The translations under genes and the position numbers were made by a program. Of a stretch of 57,507 nt of DNA, positions 49,186-57,507 are shown in pieces. The notes below the pieces were generated by a model. It did no database searches. It saw only the letters and a program-made list of their open reading frames with translations, and was not told the origin of the DNA. Every line of letters begins with the position of its first letter. The first letter of the stretch is position 1. The DNA is from Lampropedia hyalina DSM 16112 (GTDB taxonomy: Bacteria; Pseudomonadota; Gammaproteobacteria; Burkholderiales; Burkholderiaceae_C): NCBI RefSeq assembly GCF_900129055.1, contig NZ_FQUZ01000002.1, positions 1 to 57,507 of the forward strand, written 5' to 3'.

Positions 49186-49278
49186 ACGTCAAGTGTAGTT
49201 TTTCAACACGTTGGCCGCCCGCATCCTGCCACTGGGCGCGGGCTTGCTGGCAAGGACTTCGCAGACTTTCCTGGCCCA

Positions 49279-50184
49279 TTACTCCTGCGGCTCACCGGCA
49301 GCGGGAGCGCATGTCTGCCGCCAGTTTGACCACCAACGCCAGAGGTGCACTTTGGTCTTGCTGAGGTAATGGGGGCCGTCGAACAGGTAGATGCGCAGAC
49401 CGCAATAGGCCCGCAGTTGCTGCATCAACTGCGCAAGGCTGGCCGGGCGAAAGCCACTGCCCCAGCTTTTGGGCTGAAAGGCCTCCAGCACAATCGCCAC
49501 CCGGTCTGACCCGAAGCGTTGCACCAGCGCGTCGGCAATGCGCCGGGCCTCCTCGGGACTGCGAACACCCACCCCCACGCCATCCTGAAAAAAGACTCCC
49601 ACATCGGGTGGCAGCCAGCTCTCCAGCCACAGGTCAAAATTCTGCGGCAGGCGTTCACCAGCGTAGACACTCACCCAGAGCGGACGCGGCAGTCCCGCCA
49701 GCGTATCGCGCAACTGGTGGACATGCAGCCAGCTCAGATCGGCCTCTACCGGAAAGTAAAAGGCATGGGGTGTGAATGGCAGTGGTTTCTGGCTGATGGC
49801 CTGTCCCTCTGCCCCCAGTCGGTGCAGGTCGGCACGCGCCTGGGGTTCGCTGTAGCGACCACTGAGGCCAGCAACGATGCGACCGGCCCAGGGTTCGCTG
49901 GCAATGCGCCCCCAGTCAGGCTGCCGGTTCCACTGCGGAAAGTCTGCCGATGGATACCACGCCTGACCATCCACCATCAGCCACTGCACCACCAGTGTCT
50001 CGGCTCCCAGCAAGTGCCAGTTTCCTTCTGGCCGGGCCGTGGCATTGTCAGGCTGCCAGAACACTCCTTCGACCAGAGGAAGTAGCGTATGCTTCACACC
50101 CATACCAGAAGCCACCCAGCCAGCCCAGCTCACCCCTGCCAGGGCACAGAGGATTGCAAGCCACCATCGCGCTGGAATGCTCAT
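49279..50184 (-). CDS. membrane-anchored TIM-barrel / glycoside-hydrolase-like protein of the polysaccharide locus
   Basis: Protein of 301 residues with one N-terminal hydrophobic segment (WWLAILCALAGVSWAGWVAS, about 7-26), so the rest should be periplasmic. The remainder alternates strands and helices as in a TIM barrel (TLVVQWLMVDGQAWY, RIVAGLSGRYSEPQA, LPRPLWVSVYAGER, DVGVFFQDGVGVG, VAIVLEAFQPKSWG), resembling DUF4434-type glycosidase-like proteins; the Glu in VLEAFQP and Asp in FFQDGV are candidate catalytic residues. It is last in the locus, overlapping the BcsB-like gene by ATGA, a place held by hydrolases such as BcsZ in other systems. The substrate is unknown. Confidence 0.72.
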   Translation of the reverse strand: MSIPARWWLAILCALAGVSWAGWVASGMGVKHTLLPLVEGVFWQPDNATARPEGNWHLLGAETLVVQWLMVDGQAWYPSADFPQWNRQPDWGRIASEPWAGRIVAGLSGRYSEPQARADLHRLGAEGQAISQKPLPFTPHAFYFPVEADLSWLHVHQLRDTLAGLPRPLWVSVYAGERLPQNFDLWLESWLPPDVGVFFQDGVGVGVRSPEEARRIADALVQRFGSDRVAIVLEAFQPKSWGSGFRPASLAQLMQQLRAYCGLRIYLFDGPHYLSKTKVHLWRWWSNWRQTCAPAAGEPQE

Positions 50185-52076
50185 TCTTTCACACGTTTGA
50201 GTCGAGAGCTGTGCCACAGCCACCAGGCGGCAATCGCCAACAACAAGGCCAGAACCAATGCGCCCAGCATTGCCACGGTGGGCGGACGCATGGCAGGTGT
50301 GACCTTGGTGCTGGCCACATAGTGGCGCAGCACAATCGCCTCCCCATCCTGTGCCAGGAGCACTTCCTGGGCACCATCGCGCAAATGCGGCTGCACTCCG
50401 GCCCAGTGGCGCATGAAGTTGGCCACGCTGTCGGGGGTCTCGGCAATCACATGGAACCGGTCTTCACTGTGCAACAACAGTATGCCGTTTTCGGCATACG
50501 GGGCATACACCTTGTCCGGATGGGTCGCAATGCGCTGTCGGTACAGCTCAGGGTCGATGGTCACGCTGACGCTGTGGGGCACGCTCGCATCGGTTGTAAT
50601 CCGAGCTGGCACCGGTTTGTCATCAAGCAACATGCTCGAAGCCACCTGAAGCAAGCTGATGGCCAGACCCAGCGATCCCGGTGATTCATCCACCAGAATC
50701 ACCGGATGGGGCACCAATGCCGCAGAGATCGCCGCAATGCCCGATTTGAGACGGTGGGGCAATGTGACCTGGGACTTGGCAGCATCGATCCACAATGCGC
50801 CACGCGAACGCGGCAGGCAATCGCCGTTGGCGATCAGGGTGGTTTCAATTCGCACATCGAAACTGGCAGAGGCAGCCGGCCTGGGGGTCTGGAAAGCCAA
50901 GTTGCGTACATCTCCCCCGGCTTGAACGGCATCGAATGCCATGCTGCCAGCCAGCGCGTTGTCAATCCAGACGGCCAGCTTGGAACCTTGCAACAGTCCA
51001 TTCTGCACGTTCAATGCCAGCTGACCCTGCAAAATATCAGACGGCTGCCAGACACTCGGGAAGATCAGCTGCATATCGTGGCTGCCACCTTCCAGACGCA
51101 AATCCTGTATGCCCAGATCGGCCAGCGTCTGAATGCGGCGTAAACCTGCCCAACGCGGCGGATCGATGTTTTCGACAATATCGGCCTGTGCCGTACCAAG
51201 CTGCGCCAGATAATCCACGTTCAGCAACGCATGGACCGCATCATTCAGGCCCGCAGCATCCCGGTAGCGAATGCGAAACAACGGCATCTGGCGGTGCGCG
51301 GCTGTTTCCGGTGCAGCAACTGTGGCAAGCACCTGCCGCTCCAAACGCAGTTGCGCCCGGGAGTCAAGTTGTGGAGCATGTTCCAGCACCAGTCCAAAAT
51401 GGGCATCCTGTGCTTCGGCAGGCAACTGTGTCGCATCATGCCAACGCACCCCGGCAGCAGCCTTCCAGGCACTGCCCAGACGGGCCATTGCAGTCAATTC
51501 ATCGGCATCGCGCCGATCCAGTTGAACATGGGCAATATAAGGCTGCTCCCCCAGCACATGCGGATTGAACAAGGCATCTGGCAGGTGACGGATATGGTAG
51601 CCCTTGGGGTGCTGCACTTGGTAGGACAGGCGACTGTTACGCAGGGTGGCCGTACTTTCAATGCCCGCCTCGCAGAACTCCAGCCGGTCATCGGCAGGGC
51701 TGCCCCAATCGCCACGCTGCGTGAAAGAAAAATCAAGACGGTGAAAACCCGCCTGCAATACCGGCAGTGCAAACTGAATGTGGCCTTGCCCGGTCATATG
51801 CTGGCTGAACACGACCTTGCCATCCAACGACACGATCAGAAACAGATCGGATGACGCACGATATTGCGCGGCATAGTTGGCTCCGTCCCAGACCTCACCC
51901 TTGCCCACATAGAAATACTGGGTTTTGCTGGCAAACACATCCGACACCTGCATGGTCGCCAACGGCCATTCGGACGCACGGGAGGCACTGGCCAGCAACA
52001 GACACACTGCGACCACCGTGGCCTTGAACCACCAGGCCAGAGCCGATGGCAGACACATGCGAATTGGAACATCCAT
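50181..52076 (-). CDS. BcsB-like periplasmic subunit of a polysaccharide synthase
   Basis: Protein of 631 residues: a signal/anchor segment at the N-terminus (WWFKATVVAVCLLLASASRA), a long beta-rich periplasmic region with BcsB-like jelly-roll and flavodoxin-like alternation (LFLIVSLDGKVVFSQHM near 80, HPVILVDESPGSLGLAISLL near 440, FHVIAETPDSVANFMRHW near 540) and a C-terminal membrane helix (VAMLGALVLALLLAIAAWWLW, about 600-620) with a basic end. This topology is that of BcsB, which guides the polymer from the synthase through the periplasm. It is about 100-150 residues shorter than BcsB. It starts directly after the GT2 gene (TAAATG) with AAGGAG upstream. Confidence 0.75.
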   Translation of the reverse strand: MDVPIRMCLPSALAWWFKATVVAVCLLLASASRASEWPLATMQVSDVFASKTQYFYVGKGEVWDGANYAAQYRASSDLFLIVSLDGKVVFSQHMTGQGHIQFALPVLQAGFHRLDFSFTQRGDWGSPADDRLEFCEAGIESTATLRNSRLSYQVQHPKGYHIRHLPDALFNPHVLGEQPYIAHVQLDRRDADELTAMARLGSAWKAAAGVRWHDATQLPAEAQDAHFGLVLEHAPQLDSRAQLRLERQVLATVAAPETAAHRQMPLFRIRYRDAAGLNDAVHALLNVDYLAQLGTAQADIVENIDPPRWAGLRRIQTLADLGIQDLRLEGGSHDMQLIFPSVWQPSDILQGQLALNVQNGLLQGSKLAVWIDNALAGSMAFDAVQAGGDVRNLAFQTPRPAASASFDVRIETTLIANGDCLPRSRGALWIDAAKSQVTLPHRLKSGIAAISAALVPHPVILVDESPGSLGLAISLLQVASSMLLDDKPVPARITTDASVPHSVSVTIDPELYRQRIATHPDKVYAPYAENGILLLHSEDRFHVIAETPDSVANFMRHWAGVQPHLRDGAQEVLLAQDGEAIVLRHYVASTKVTPAMRPPTVAMLGALVLALLLAIAAWWLWHSSRLKRVKE

Positions 52077-53327
52077 TTATTTCTTCTCCTTGGTGCGTTC
52101 GGTTTTGTACCAAGTGATACCCTGACCCTTGATCTTTCCCTTGAGCATTTCCCATGCGGCCTTGAATACCACCACCAGAAAGAGCTGTGCATAGGTGAAA
52201 TAGGCCAGAACTGCGAAAAAATACAGCTGTGGCCGCCGCTCCTCCATCGACAGGGTGAAAAATACCTGGGCCACATAAATCAGAAACGAGAGCAGCCACA
52301 ACAAGGTAAACGGCCCCGGAATGGTCACCCCTCCCAGCCCCGTCAGTCCCATCAGCAACGCCGTATGGCTCATGACCAGGGCGGGCACGAACATCACATA
52401 GCACATGACATTGTTGAGAATCTCCAGCCCGATCGGAAACGGATGGGTCAATGCCACAGGCAGGTACTTATTGGTGACGTAGAAATTGCCCTGTGTCCAG
52501 CGCGAACGCTGCTTGAGGAAAATACGCAGCGGGGCCGGATCCTGCTGCCAACCCACCGCGTAGGGCACCCAGCGAATGCGGCGTTTGCCCAGGAATATGC
52601 GAAAACTCATCTCGGTATCGTCCACCAGCGAGAGTTCGTCGAATCCTCCCAGCGTCTCCAGGGCATCCCGCCAGATCACATAATTGGTTCCCATCAGCGT
52701 GGAAAGCCGGAACATATGCCAGCGACCACCCTGGAAAATCCATTGGAAGAAAATGAATTCGATGGCAATGAAACGCGTCATCACACTGTCGGCCCAGTTG
52801 CGGGTGCGCACCTTGCCATTGACTGCCACCAACGACGGATCGGCCAGCAGGGTCTGTGACAGCAAGCGCACACAATCGGGTTCCGGGGTGCTGTCGGCAT
52901 CGTAGACCACGATCAATTCGCCCCTGGCATGCGGCAGACCATTGTTGAGAGTGCGCGACTTGCCCTTGCCTCCCATGCCCTTGGGCACATTGACGATGCG
53001 GATGCACGCAAACTCCGCCGCCAGACGCTCCGCAATCTACAGCGTGTCATCCTTGGAGCCATCGTTGATGAGCACGACTTCGTAGCGGTGCGCCGGGTAA
53101 TCCTGCGCTGCCATGGCACGCAACGTATCCTCGATCACCAGCCCTTCGTTATAGGCGGGTATCAGCACACTGAGCATCGGCCACTCCTTGGGCTGCGGCA
53201 GCGATGCCAGCTCACGACGCGACGCAATCGAGTAACGCCAGGCCGCAAAGCTCAGTACGGCCCAGAAGGCCTGGGGTATCCAGATGCCCAGAAAACCAAA
53301 GGGGAACAGGGTATCTATGGTACTCAC
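52077..53327 (-). pseudogene. GT2 polysaccharide synthase (BcsA/PgaC-like) interrupted by an in-frame TAG
   Basis: Processive glycosyltransferase frame of 416 codons, open except for TAG at 53037-53039 (codon 97). Before it: an N-terminal membrane segment (GFLGIWIPQAFWAVLSFAAW) and LSVLIPAYNEG, INDGSKDDTL. After it, in frame: IAERLAAEFACIRIVNV, YDADST (DAD 143-145), VDDTEMSFRI (236-244) and QRSRW (273-277), the Q-x-x-R-W motif of polymerising synthases, then three or four membrane segments. There is no PilZ domain. TAG could come from CAG by one transition. The start is GTG 53327, overlapping the upstream stop (GTGA). Restart at ATG 52988 would lack the first nucleotide-binding strand. Either a disabled allele or a sequence error. 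Confidence 0.82.
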
Positions 53328-54340
53328 CACAGCCTCCGCAAACGGCGCAGGGCCGCCAGTATCAACAGCAGCAGCAAACCTGCGCCGATCACCAGGGAAA
53401 CCCACGAAATCGATGTTCCCACCCATTGCAGCACATTCGGCCAAGGTGTCGCAAAAAACAAGCCCACTGGCACAGAAAGCAGGGTCGCCATGGCCAGTAC
53501 ATGCCCCATCGGAGAAGTCTCCAACCCCTCCAGCCGACTATGGAAATCAGAGTTCAGATACTCCCAGGACAAACCCAGTTCAGGATAATCCACACGGCCC
53601 ACGCCACCATCGGGCCAATACTGCGGATCAATCACCACCGCGAATCCACCCCCATGCGGCAATGTGTCGCTTGCATGATAAATATACCGCCCTTGCACCT
53701 CATGCTGCCGGGCGGGTACCGGCAAGCCACCATAGCCACTGCTGCCACGGTGATCGATCAGATAAGCCCCCTTGCCTGCCGCCAGCAGATTGTCTGACCA
53801 ACCGTCCACCACCAGAGCAGCCAGTGGACGCAATCCCAGTGCCGAAGCAAAGCTGGCCCGTGCAGCAAAATGATCGAATTGGTGGTTGCGCATCGGCTGT
53901 ACGACAATCGCTCCCTCTTGCACGGCCTGGTAGTAAAAGCGGTATGTGCTGGGCTTGAGGATCTCCAGCGGATTCTCGGGCAACAGCACCCCGGGTTTGA
54001 CACCCGCGCCCAGCATCTGGCGGTAGATGGGCTGCGCGGCTTGCCGGTCAGTGAACAAGGGCCACCATCGCTGCTCAGCCGGAAAATAGCTGCCAATATC
54101 GCGCATGGCCACCACGGCCTGAGCCACTTCCAATTTAGCCACACGCCCGGGCAACGGAGCCGCAGTGCCATCCCCATCGCTTGGTTCCTGCTCCGGTGCG
54201 TCCAGAGCCGGAACCTTGTCTGGCAAACCACGCAACGGGTGGCAACCATATTCCTGCACATACAACTGCACCAGCAAGGGCTGCGGGGCAGGTGCCGGCT
54301 CCAAAATCAGGCTGCACAGCAGAATATGCGTCAGGATCAT
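53324..54340 (-). CDS. unrecognised membrane-anchored protein of the polysaccharide locus
   Basis: Protein of 338 residues that I cannot assign to a family. It has a hydrophobic start (MILTHILLCSLILEP), a long soluble region, probably periplasmic, rich in Pro, Gly and aromatic residues (GVLLPENPLEIL, QPMRNHQFDHFAARASF, GAYLIDHRGSSGYGGLP, VVIDPQYWPDGG), and two C-terminal hydrophobic segments (MATLLSVPVGLFFATPW and WVSLVIGAGLLLLLILAAL) ending in an Arg-rich cytoplasmic tail. Both ends overlap neighbours by 4 bases, so it should be made with the membrane GGDEF-like protein and the synthase. A role as an assembly or modification subunit of the synthase is inferred from position only. Confidence 0.65.
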   Translation of the reverse strand: MILTHILLCSLILEPAPAPQPLLVQLYVQEYGCHPLRGLPDKVPALDAPEQEPSDGDGTAAPLPGRVAKLEVAQAVVAMRDIGSYFPAEQRWWPLFTDRQAAQPIYRQMLGAGVKPGVLLPENPLEILKPSTYRFYYQAVQEGAIVVQPMRNHQFDHFAARASFASALGLRPLAALVVDGWSDNLLAAGKGAYLIDHRGSSGYGGLPVPARQHEVQGRYIYHASDTLPHGGGFAVVIDPQYWPDGGVGRVDYPELGLSWEYLNSDFHSRLEGLETSPMGHVLAMATLLSVPVGLFFATPWPNVLQWVGTSISWVSLVIGAGLLLLLILAALRRLRRLW

Positions 54341-55092
54341 GATGATGCCTCCACTGTGGGATTGCAGATATGTGCCGACATGCGCACCTGGAGAATCAAC
54401 TCTTTGATGCCCCTGAGCCTTTGCACGAAAAGAGGCTCCGTCTCGTCTTCAGGGAACTGGGTCACCTGCAAACAGCGAAGGTGCGTCAGGCCATTCTCGG
54501 CAAACACGAAAACCGCATCGTCGGCATGCTGCTCCAGCACTTCCAGCATGCGCAAGCGCGCACTCTGCCAGACCTGATCGCCCAGCATATCCAGAATAAG
54601 CAGGTGGTTCGTCACCACGACGTCAATGACACGATAGCCCTTCGTGCCGGAGCGGCGGCACAGTATGTCCAAGTGCAGCATGAAATGCGCACTCGCTGCC
54701 ATATTCAAAGTCAGCACATCGGTGCGCTGATTCAATTCCAGCAGCGCACTGCTGGCCACACGGCGCAACTGGAGATTGTGGTAGATGGCACTGAGCCACA
54801 ACGGTGCAGCGGGATTGAGCACCAGCATCAAGGTCTGCTGTTCGATCGGCAAACCCATACTGGCCTTGTAGAACATATACAGTGCCGTGAAAACAAAAGC
54901 CATCAACCCCAGTATTACCGCCTGTCCGACCCGCAACACCGCACCACTGGCCAGCAGCAGCAGGTAAATGATCCAGCCTCCGCGCAGATGCTCTGGAATC
55001 CACTCGTACGCCAGCAGGCCCGTCACAGCGAGACAGACCAACATCCAGCCGATGATGGTTTTTCTGCGCAGCGGAGTGATGATGGCAGGCAT
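54337..55092 (-). CDS. membrane protein with degenerate GGDEF-like domain (PelD-like role proposed)
   Basis: Protein of 251 residues. Three or four membrane segments occupy residues 12-90. The C-terminal half follows the GGDEF fold pattern: RTDVLTLNMAASAHFMLHLD (cf. D-x-LT-x-L-x-N-R-x-x), YRVIDVVVTNHLLILDMLGD (cf. the metal-binding strand and N-D-x-x-G) and AVFVFAENGLTHLRCL, where AENGL replaces GGDEF. The inhibitory-site RxxD position reads HADD. It therefore cannot be an active diguanylate cyclase; like PelD it might sense c-di-GMP or only act as a scaffold. Its stop overlaps the next gene and it follows wecB by 15 bases. Confidence 0.6.
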   Translation of the reverse strand: MPAIITPLRRKTIIGWMLVCLAVTGLLAYEWIPEHLRGGWIIYLLLLASGAVLRVGQAVILGLMAFVFTALYMFYKASMGLPIEQQTLMLVLNPAAPLWLSAIYHNLQLRRVASSALLELNQRTDVLTLNMAASAHFMLHLDILCRRSGTKGYRVIDVVVTNHLLILDMLGDQVWQSARLRMLEVLEQHADDAVFVFAENGLTHLRCLQVTQFPEDETEPLFVQRLRGIKELILQVRMSAHICNPTVEASS

Positions 55093-55107: not shown

Positions 55108-56277
55108 TCACATCAAGGCTTGGGGCGGCACGCCCGTGCACACATCGGTGGCGATGCGCTCCAGAATCCGCAGCGAGGCCCGGCCATCGCCAAACGGGTT
55201 TTCTGCCCCCGCCATGCGGGCAAAGTGTTCGGCATCGTCCAGCAAACGCCCGGCCTCATGGACAATCAGATCGGCATCGGTTCCCACCAGCCTGCCCGCC
55301 CCGGCCTGCACCACCTCGGGACGCTCCGTGGTAGTGCGCAAGATCAGCACCGGCTTGCCAAACGAAGGGCACTCCTCCTGAATTCCGCCCGAATCGGTCA
55401 GGGCAAAATGGCTGCTTTGCAGCACCGCCATCAACTGCGGGTAATTCAACGGCGGCAGCAAATGCACGCGCGCGTTGTCTCCCAGGCTCTGGCGCACCAC
55501 ATCGCGCACTGCCGGATTCAGGTGTACCGGCCAGACGACGTGCAGATTCTCGTGCGTCTGCACCAGGCGTGCCACCGCATCGCAGATATGGCGGATGCCC
55601 TCCCCGAAATTCTCACGCCGGTGTGCCGTCACCAGCACCAGCCGTTCCTGTCCGGTCAGCGGCAGTCCCAATGCGGACAGCACAGCCTGCGCCGACTCGG
55701 TACCGGGCTGCGACAACCGCTGGCGTGCCCAATGCACGGCATCCACCACCGTATTGCCCGTGACCAGAATCCGCTCGCCTGCAACCCCTTCATTCTCCAG
55801 ATTCCGTGCCGACAGCGGCGTGGGCGCGAAATGCCAGTGCGCCAGACGGGACACCAGTTGCCGATTCCCTTCCTCCGGGAAAGGATGCTCCAGATCGAAA
55901 GAACGCAGGCCCGCCTCGACGTGCGCCAACGAAATCTTGTGGGCGAACGCCACCAGCGAGGCCGCCAGTACCGTGGTCGTGTCCCCCTGCACCACCACCA
56001 CATCGCGCTTGCGCCCATCGGCATAGACCCGTTCGATCTGCTGAAGACCCCGCGCCAGCAACTGCGTCAGGGACTGCCCTTCCTGCATCATGTCCAGACG
56101 ATGATCGATGTGGATGCCGAAGAAGCCGATGGCATCGCGCACCAACTCATCGTGCTGTGCCGTGAAAACCACCTCCACAGCAAAGCGCGCATCGGCCTGT
56201 GCCGCCAGAATCAGCGGTGCGAGCTTGACCAGCTCCGGCCGCGTGCCAAAAACGAACGAAATCAGAATGGGGCGCAT
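55108..56277 (-). CDS. wecB: UDP-N-acetylglucosamine 2-epimerase (non-hydrolysing)
   Basis: Cytosolic enzyme of 389 residues interconverting UDP-GlcNAc and UDP-ManNAc. FVFGTRPELVKLAPLI (8-23), VVQGDTTTVLAASLVAF, HVEAGLRSFDLEHPFPEEGN, VTAHRRENFGEGI and the UDP-binding TDSGGIQEE with LRTTTERPE (near 335) are all standard. No ManNAc dehydrogenase gene accompanies it here, so the locus appears to supply UDP-ManNAc itself to the synthase. It shares one base with the stop of the exporter gene (TGATG). Confidence 0.95.
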   Translation of the reverse strand: MRPILISFVFGTRPELVKLAPLILAAQADARFAVEVVFTAQHDELVRDAIGFFGIHIDHRLDMMQEGQSLTQLLARGLQQIERVYADGRKRDVVVVQGDTTTVLAASLVAFAHKISLAHVEAGLRSFDLEHPFPEEGNRQLVSRLAHWHFAPTPLSARNLENEGVAGERILVTGNTVVDAVHWARQRLSQPGTESAQAVLSALGLPLTGQERLVLVTAHRRENFGEGIRHICDAVARLVQTHENLHVVWPVHLNPAVRDVVRQSLGDNARVHLLPPLNYPQLMAVLQSSHFALTDSGGIQEECPSFGKPVLILRTTTERPEVVQAGAGRLVGTDADLIVHEAGRLLDDAEHFARMAGAENPFGDGRASLRILERIATDVCTGVPPQALM

Positions 56278-57464
56278 CAGAAACTCCGGTAATAGGTCAG
56301 CTCCAGCCGACGGTTGTGGTAACTGGCCCGACCATCGGCAGCCTTGCCCCGCAGATAGAACACCTTCACGGTTTCCAGATGCAGGCTCAGCGGCAGCCAG
56401 GCCGCCAAATCGAAGGCAATGCCAGGGCCGACTTCCAGAATGTTGTTGTAGAACAGGCCATCGGTATCGTGGGAACTGCGCACCTTGGCATAGCCGCGCA
56501 CCACAGCCTGCGGGGTCTTGACCAGATTCAGGCCGGGGCGCAGTCGCAAATCGGCAATGACGTTGTAATCGTTGCGGGAATAGGTCGCCACATTGCCGTA
56601 GAAGTCAGCATGGAAACGCTGCCCCAGACTGGGAAAACGGCAACCGGTTCCGGCCTCGCCGCAGTGGCGCGAAGTGTCGCCCCATTCCCGGAAGCTGGTC
56701 AGACCGGCCACCACACTCTCGCGGTACTTCGAGCGGTTGCGGTCGATCAGGTCGCGGCTCATACCCAGTTCCAGATAGGCGGTCAGGGGCCATGCAGTGG
56801 CCAGGCGGTAATTCAGCCCCATGCCAACGATCAGGGCGTTTTCGTCCACGACTTCAGGGCGCACCCCACCAGTGGAGCGGGTGTCGCGGTTCAGGGATGC
56901 AAAGCCATACCACTGGCCACGCTGCTCGCTGCCGTAATAGCGACCCAGGCGCAACTTCAGCGGCAGAATGCCTGCCTCCGAGCGCGACTCATAGGACGGG
57001 GAAGCGTAAATGTCAGCGAAAGAAGACCGCAGGGCACGGTGCGACTCCACGGCAAAGCCCAGGTTATCCGCCGCCTGGGTGGCGGTGGCCGCAATCTCCG
57101 GGTCTGATGACTGTCGCAGGCGGGTGAATTCCGCATGGGCCTGGACATTGCGCCCCAGCCCGTTCAGCAGATACGCCTTTTGCAGGCCAATGGCGTCATC
57201 GGCCGGATCGAGTGCCAGTACCTGATCGGCCAGGCCGATGGCCTCCTCGGGCTGGCCCGTGCGAATCTTCAGGTACAGCATCGACTTGAGTGCCATCAAG
57301 TCGTGCGGGGAATGCGCCAGAATCTGGCGCAGGCTGGCCTCGGCTACTGCATCATCACGAGATTCATGTGCATAAAACCGGCTCCAGAGCGCATGACGTT
57401 CTTGCGGCAAAATCTCCGCCAGACTGACGTTGGCCAAAGCCAGCAGCAAGACTCCACCCAGCAT
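56277..57464 (-). CDS. outer-membrane polysaccharide exporter: TPR plus beta-barrel (5' end probably outside window)
   Basis: From the ATG at 57464 the product has 395 residues: a hydrophobic stretch (MLGGVLLLALANVSLA), TPR-like helices (about 25-130; MALKSMLYLKIRTGQPEEA, QKAYLLNGLGRNVQAHAEF) and a strand-rich C-terminal half ending in Phe (LELTYYRSF), the C-terminal signature of outer-membrane barrels. The layout recalls BcsC, PgaA and NfrA exporters but is much shorter. The ATG has no ribosome-binding site, and the in-frame codons upstream (PVGLSACRPVGLSA, inside an 8-bp repeat array) complete a better signal peptide, so the true start is probably beyond the edge. It heads the polysaccharide operon. 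Confidence 0.75.
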   Translation of the reverse strand: MLGGVLLLALANVSLAEILPQERHALWSRFYAHESRDDAVAEASLRQILAHSPHDLMALKSMLYLKIRTGQPEEAIGLADQVLALDPADDAIGLQKAYLLNGLGRNVQAHAEFTRLRQSSDPEIAATATQAADNLGFAVESHRALRSSFADIYASPSYESRSEAGILPLKLRLGRYYGSEQRGQWYGFASLNRDTRSTGGVRPEVVDENALIVGMGLNYRLATAWPLTAYLELGMSRDLIDRNRSKYRESVVAGLTSFREWGDTSRHCGEAGTGCRFPSLGQRFHADFYGNVATYSRNDYNVIADLRLRPGLNLVKTPQAVVRGYAKVRSSHDTDGLFYNNILEVGPGIAFDLAAWLPLSLHLETVKVFYLRGKAADGRASYHNRRLELTYYRSF

Positions 57465-57507
57465 GGCCGACAGGCCGACAGGCCGACAGGCCGACAGGCC
57501 GACAGGC
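57465..57507. repeat. tandem 8-bp repeat (GGCCGACA) at the 5' end of the exporter gene
   Basis: Five perfect GGCCGACA units (57465-57504) plus GGC run to the right edge, so the array may be longer. Read with the gene (unit TGTCGGCC) every frame encodes the same cycle C-R-P-V-G-L-S-A without stops. Because 8 is not a multiple of 3, a change of one unit shifts the frame, as in phase-variable contingency genes. The copy number beyond the edge is unknown. Confidence 0.9.

Follow-up and report, generated by a model that had tools for sequence, protein, structure and literature searches.

A possible random on/off switch of a surface glycan: an octanucleotide array at the start of a polysaccharide exporter gene of Lampropedia hyalina

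Introduction

In Lampropedia hyalina DSM 16112 a perfect tandem array of an 8-bp unit lies directly before the annotated ATG of a polysaccharide exporter gene. The position raises the question of whether the array could switch the gene, and the operon that it heads, on and off, or whether it is the mark of a decaying locus, an element of an untranslated leader or a product of assembly. A preliminary description had placed a phase-variation array in the signal-peptide codons of the exporter. None of the literature matches listed described a repeat within nfrA or pgrG. The window, by which we mean the whole 57,507-nucleotide stretch of DNA that was analysed, comprises bases 1-57507 of the 151,318-bp contig C22.

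Results

An octanucleotide array adjoins the exporter start

The plus strand of the window terminates in (GGCCGACA)5GGC at 57465-57507, which amounts to five perfect 8-bp units and three further bases. The array adjoins the ATG (57462-57464, minus strand) of a 395-amino-acid exporter ORF, and the exporter is gene 1 of seven collinear and tightly packed genes. The features are as follows, with the basis of each assignment in parentheses.

57465..57507, minus strand: octanucleotide array, left part, coding strand (GCCTGTCG)5GCC (repeat search and sequence beyond the window)
56277..57464, minus strand: polysaccharide exporter, PgrG-like, 395 aa when started at the ATG adjoining the array and longer if read through the array (TPR segment, PGR comparison)
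55108..56277, minus strand: UDP-N-acetylglucosamine 2-epimerase, WecB, PgrF-like (TIGR00236, 426.6 bits, above cut-off)
54337..55092, minus strand: PgrA-like 251-aa protein (position and 25.9-34.7% identity; without a family match)
53324..54340, minus strand: PgrB-like 338-aa protein (position and similarity; without a family match)
52077..53444, minus strand: GT2 glycosyltransferase, PgrC-like and PgaC-related, split by a TAG at 53037-53039 (profile match and PGR comparison)
50181..52076, minus strand: BcsB-like protein, PgrD-like (Pfam BcsB, 17.2 bits against a cut-off of 21)
49279..50223, minus strand: DUF4434-like protein, PgrE-like (Pfam, 20 bits against a cut-off of 30)

The TRF score of the array is 86, compared with 45 for the runner-up in the window, and a perfect array of this kind would be expected by chance about 6 × 10−16 times per window by a rough analytic estimate. 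A two-unit probe with up to two mismatches gave four matches, all within the array, compared with 0.06 expected in shuffles. A repeat survey of the window and 20 stretches (372,810 of the 3,184,472 genome bases) found, at the thresholds used, no second tandem repeat with a unit not divisible by three, and the remaining repeats listed were tri- and hexanucleotides. In this respect, a perfect tandem array beyond chance with a unit not divisible by three, the locus resembles a contingency locus. Exact copies of two units plus three bases are confined to the array within the genome, and a three-unit array was found in one of ten genus genomes, the own one; on these exact matches, a dispersed element of the genome or genus was rejected. 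No other allele was found in plasmids or in viral contigs, the latter searched with one exact pattern, and an 11-kb stretch gave no Rfam match at the gathering threshold.

In each of its three frames the array reads as ACRPVGLS in cyclic order, and no frame contains a stop. The preliminary description had noted at least five perfect units before the annotated ATG and a repeat that holds no stop, so that off-frames would end only downstream; both points were borne out, and the frames from the upstream start codons described below, when wrong, end 33 or 40 codons past the array.

Two other repetitive features were observed. A short dispersed palindromic element lies at 49205-49272, between a LysR-type regulator gene and the end of the operon, with 41 matches in its own genome including this place, most of those listed being about 35-70 bp long. 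The record L037 (G000:C5), a 9.8-kb contig, carries GCATCG/GCATCA-type hexanucleotide arrays of up to 16.8 copies at 707-840.

A run of ten N conceals the length of the array

The window edge was considered as a contig end and this was rejected, since position 57507 sits inside the contig, where it borders a run of ten N. Past the ten N the identical 43 bases recur at C22:57518-57560, followed by an AT-rich stretch and then by a divergent acetyl-CoA hydrolase gene. The unit starts on either side of the gap are 53 bp apart, which is not a multiple of 8, so for a perfect array the ten N would be a placeholder and not a true distance. With n units the whole array measures 8n+3 bp; n is at least 5, and the gap hides its exact value. 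Because the ten N are out of register with the repeat, neither the frame used in the preliminary description nor a 444-aa ORF that the ORF caller drew across the N is established, and that ORF was rejected as proof of frame.

Upstream start codons enter the array in two frames

The preliminary description had pointed to the right of the window edge for an upstream start codon, and the leader there does hold two ATGs, while the gap conceals the frame in which they would reach the exporter. The ATG at C22:57611 precedes the array by 51 nt, and the frame that it opens, with the peptide start MKKYAKFFLVQFFRFIV, runs across the array. Only for n divisible by three does this frame (MKKYAKFFLVQFFRFIV-array-MLGGVLLL...) lead into the exporter, in which case the exporter would read MKKYAKFFLVQFFRFIV-(ACRPVGLS)k-A-MLGGVLLLALANVSLA..., and the ATG at C22:57618 (MTNEK..., peptide MTNEKICQIFSRAVFSIYRSLS) joins it only when n leaves a remainder of 1. 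One GTG and one TTG share the frames of these two ATGs. For a remainder of 2 there is no in-frame ATG, GTG or TTG within 140 nt upstream.

By eye, no Shine-Dalgarno sequence precedes any of the candidate starts, neither the two upstream ATGs nor the ATG at 57464, and in the last case this agrees with what had been described. Upstream of the ATGs one sigma-70-like site was found compared with 0.5 expected, a weak match; if used, this predicted promoter would place the transcript start near C22:57644. In 5,000 dinucleotide shuffles each of a 199-nt and a 101-nt leader, an ATG was open into the array in 2,327 and 2,061 cases, respectively, and open ATGs occurred in at least two frames in 325 and 213, so an open start by itself is nothing unusual. 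Starts that equal MKKYAK... in basic charge and hydrophobicity arose in 22 of the 5,000 shuffles of the 199-nt leader and in 15 of those of the 101-nt leader, with thresholds that are post hoc, the hydrophobicity threshold of 1.89 having been set after the peptide (1.90) was seen. At a hydrophobicity of at least 2.0, an equally post hoc threshold of which the observed peptide (1.90) falls short, 12 of 5,000 shuffles qualified. The first 390 bases of the leader had no listed match in the nine other genus genomes.

Translation from the ATG at 57464 would yield a signal of about 16 residues that contains neither Lys nor Arg, and this peptide is the most hydrophobic of the candidates (2.69, compared with 1.90 and 1.61), which weakens the earlier view that reading through the repeats yields a better signal peptide. 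The start used at remainder 1 would be a poor signal, with a charge of 0 and a hydrophobicity of 1.61. Translation through the array would give an unusual N terminus of at least 50 residues with two hydrophobic stretches. Of the Arg-containing n-region and longer hydrophobic core that had been proposed, the Arg stands, one in each ACRPVGLS, and the longer core does not, since ACRPVGLS would form a linker. The proposal that the repeat is coding finds partial support: the array is very unlikely by chance, lies at the position of the relatives' signal-peptide codons, is free of stops and is entered by ATG frames that traverse it at remainder 0 or 1, but the upstream ATGs have no Shine-Dalgarno sequence, the frame is hidden by the gap, and open ATGs are common in shuffled leaders.

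Relatives of the exporter begin where the array sits

The TPR segment of the exporter matches TPR segments of solved structures (PDB sequences) and scores below the cut-off of the Pfam TPR models; the C-terminal part, which ends in Phe, is taken by analogy as a putative outer-membrane barrel. PgaA was rejected as a strict label (TIGR03939, 14.8 bits against a cut-off of 366.65, over the TPR part only). The exporter profile found, at E 1e-20, one of 399 family genomes, the own one, and 4 of 369 class genomes, own included; at E 1e-40 it found 45 of 299 Moraxellaceae genomes. A single-protein search of 60 relatives returned, besides the own genome, four weak matches of 21-25 bits, which were not counted as exporters. 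The protein also matches seven records of the plasmid collection, all Acinetobacter and three of them chromosome-sized; because these records carry PGR-like exporters, the operon may travel. Two records of a phage collection match the exporter; they are probably mislabelled host contigs and were left aside.

The two closest relatives, both Moraxellaceae copies, begin MKLFL... and MKRLI... where the array sits here, and further relatives have plausible MK, MN or MR starts, often with longer alternatives (picked by eye from the listed frames). By sequence comparison, the array occupies the site at which relatives encode the basic n-region. Tandem repeats (unit of at least 2, at least 3 copies, at least 14 bp) between 400 nt upstream and 150 nt past the match start were found in none of 37 related records, which are 34 distinct loci once three duplicate records are discounted, with 30 of 46 Moraxellaceae matches taken as loci. 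The array was accordingly rejected as an ancestral feature of the exporter. Single-base runs of 8-9 occur in this interval in six of the 37 records.

The annotated exporter start of the A. baumannii locus (L052, 11836-11900) is probably internal, as another ATG lies upstream in the same frame, is accompanied by a GAGGTG-like site and would begin a signal peptide of the form MKN....

The operon resembles the PGR phage-receptor locus

Eight query pieces covering the seven genes all matched A. baumannii L052, A. variabilis L050 and Moraxellaceae L054, and seven of the eight matched L053, where the DUF4434 gene was missed. Each of the seven PGR genes thus has a counterpart in the one cluster studied here; the 251- and 338-aa proteins were identified as putative PgrA and PgrB from their position and similarity. 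The second part of the GT2 protein scores best with PgaC (76.5 bits), below the cut-off of that model. A. baumannii L052 corresponds to the PGR locus, which in the portions available of the published account is needed for adsorption of phage StAb3 and occurs, in whole or in part, in 958 of 994 complete A. baumannii genomes (PMC12507263). Judged by its gene content, the operon belongs to the PGR/NGR phage-receptor kind, and this strengthens the contingency idea.

Several variations were seen among related loci. A Moraxellaceae MAG (G792:C36) holds two PGR-like loci, L053 and L054, about 15 kb apart, each with an extra gene of 520-525 aa that shares one base with the start of the exporter gene. 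In L051, wecB is separated from the operon gene that follows it by an IS5-family transposase. The distant class relatives L025 and L027 have the order epimerase, TPR exporter and GT2 synthase, like the Nfr set.

The glycosyltransferase gene is interrupted

The GT2 gene carries an in-frame TAG at 53037-53039, and the frame is open and relative-like on both sides, the part downstream of the TAG being 76-77% identical to relatives. In all four compared relatives GT2 is a single open frame of 416-417 aa. A working PGR locus would have all seven genes open, and here GT2 is not. The TAG is either a sequencing error or a sign that the glycan has been lost in this strain regardless of the array; with it in place, the strain may fail to produce the glycan whatever the phase. 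It would also fit phage selection against the pathway. In the parts available of the published account, resistant Acinetobacter isolates carry insertions, a point change, missing loci and pseudogenes in PGR (PMC12507263).

Weighing the explanations

We consider it somewhat probable that the array represents a simple-sequence contingency repeat located within the translated 5′ end of the pgrG-like exporter gene, the first of the seven collinear genes. In its favor are the perfection and singularity of the array, the ATG frames that enter it in two of three frames, the rarity among shuffled leaders of a start as signal-like as the upstream one, the sigma-70-like site and the match to the PGR locus. 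Further, the closest relatives start with MK... at the place of the array and the predicted signal from the ATG at 57464 is without Lys or Arg; by analogy, simple-sequence repeats in the leader codons or 5′ end of outer-membrane protein genes, reported as phase-variable, would point the same way. Against it stand the lack of a Shine-Dalgarno sequence upstream, the weak promoter match, the commonness of open ATGs, the unusual N terminus, the poor signal at remainder 1, the more hydrophobic core from the ATG at 57464, the post hoc nature of the signal-peptide comparison and the TAG in GT2. That TAG is the main support for a different account, possible but doubtful, in which the operon is decaying in this lineage, its ancestral start region lost, and the array grew in unselected DNA, where it may vary in length and switches nothing. 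The restriction of the exporter to one of 399 family genomes at E 1e-20 suggests that the operon was probably acquired and is perhaps dispensable, no candidate start has a Shine-Dalgarno sequence, and in A. baumannii PGR is occasionally lost (absent in 3.6% of the 994 genomes) or disrupted by deletions or insertions (3.5% of PGR-positive strains), according to the parts available of PMC12507263. Decay is harder to reconcile with the other genes of the operon, which are open, collinear and alignable to relatives, with a GC content that in each of the eight pieces, even the one past the TAG, is lowest at the second codon position (a count with no non-coding control), and with an array placed exactly at the exporter start and not at a random site.

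If instead the ATG at 57464 were the true start, the array would lie in a 5′ leader and its length would alter mRNA structure or spacing, and hence the strength of expression and not the frame. We regard this as quite unlikely, even though that ATG adjoins the array and yields the most hydrophobic of the three peptides, and even though the array RNA folds at −18.9 kcal/mol and the leader-plus-array stretch at −36.3 kcal/mol. The ATG has no ribosome-binding site, and its signal is devoid of basic residues and does not reach the length seen in the two closest relatives; the folding of the sense strand is modest relative to shuffles (z = −1.65, with 11 of 200 as good, and z = −1.49, with 19 of 200), and the antisense strand alone stands out (z = −4.93, 0 of 200). 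Very improbable, in our judgment, is that one short array was entered twice around the ten N, so that n is exactly 5. The identity of the 43 bases on both sides of the gap and the ten N being out of register with the 8-bp repeat speak for such an assembly artefact, but at least five perfect units exist either way, and an assembler would have had little reason to break at an array of 43 bp or less. The best reading of the locus is an Opa-like contingency repeat in a phage-receptor-type operon of a strain that has possibly already lost the pathway.

Discussion

The locus resembles a switch that would turn a surface glycan on and off at random, and the counterpart of that glycan in Acinetobacter serves as a phage receptor. 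Under the contingency reading, translation would begin upstream of the array, slipped-strand mispairing would alter n, and each unit gained or lost would shift the frame that runs from the ATG at C22:57611 across the array. The exporter would then be read from C22:57611 when n is a multiple of three, from C22:57618 at a remainder of 1 and from neither at a remainder of 2. In out-of-frame alleles the exporter would be lost and, by polarity, the rest of the operon as well. The outcome would be a random on/off display of a ManNAc-type glycan that phage could use as a receptor, and such switching may serve as a bet-hedge against phage. The present isolate may be a non-producer owing to the TAG in the glycosyltransferase gene.

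The closest parallel in design is found in Neisseria opa, where CTCTT repeats in leader-peptide codons are described as causing phase variation by slipped-strand mispairing in the parts available of PMC3960869. In both cases a unit that is not a multiple of three would lie in the leader codons of an outer-membrane protein gene, although coding and variation here are predictions from sequence. The present unit differs from CTCTT in being 8 bp long and GC-rich, and its predicted product, ACRPVGLS, would lie between two hydrophobic stretches; the gene is that of a polysaccharide exporter and heads an operon. In Helicobacter pylori, CT repeats near the 5′ end of sabA, hopZ and oipA have been reported to switch (PMC3960876, in part); these too are repeats at the 5′ end of outer-membrane protein genes, but they are dinucleotides and concern adhesins and related proteins. 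The Haemophilus influenzae hmw genes share the length of the unit, an octanucleotide repeat having been proposed, in the portions available of PMC2651432, to mediate their phase variation; that repeat lies 200-213 nt upstream of the gene and not, as is predicted here, in signal-peptide codons.

In gene content the operon is like the pgrA-G locus of A. baumannii, with an exporter, WecB, a BcsB-like protein, a GT2 glycosyltransferase, a DUF4434-like protein and two more proteins. In L052, however, two genes and five genes face each other, GT2 is open and there is no repeat, whereas here the seven genes are collinear, the array is present and GT2 carries the TAG. E. coli NfrA, NfrB and WecB make the receptor glycan of phage N4, and this NGR system depends on c-di-GMP (PMC8669472). 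The present operon shares with it a TPR-containing exporter, WecB and a GT2 synthase, here predicted to make a phage-receptor glycan; unlike that of NGR, the synthase of this operon has its best scores, below the cut-off, with PgaC-type models. In some E. coli strains nfrB or dgcJ is disrupted by an insertion, a deletion or a premature stop, and the parts available of the same source do not mention a repeat for the NGR genes (PMC8669472).

A more specific version of the contingency reading, which we hold to be rather unlikely, is that an operon for a phage-receptor glycan, obtained by horizontal transfer, acquired at its first gene a frame switch that is reversible and has three states. Nested start codons in different frames would give two alternative N termini, the third state would be off, and cells would randomly show or hide the receptor, in contrast to the loss of the locus by insertion or deletion in Acinetobacter.

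If the contingency reading is true, the octanucleotide in the exporter gene would join the Opa-like set, and a reversible repeat switch would be a distinct way to keep the glycan and yet evade phage.
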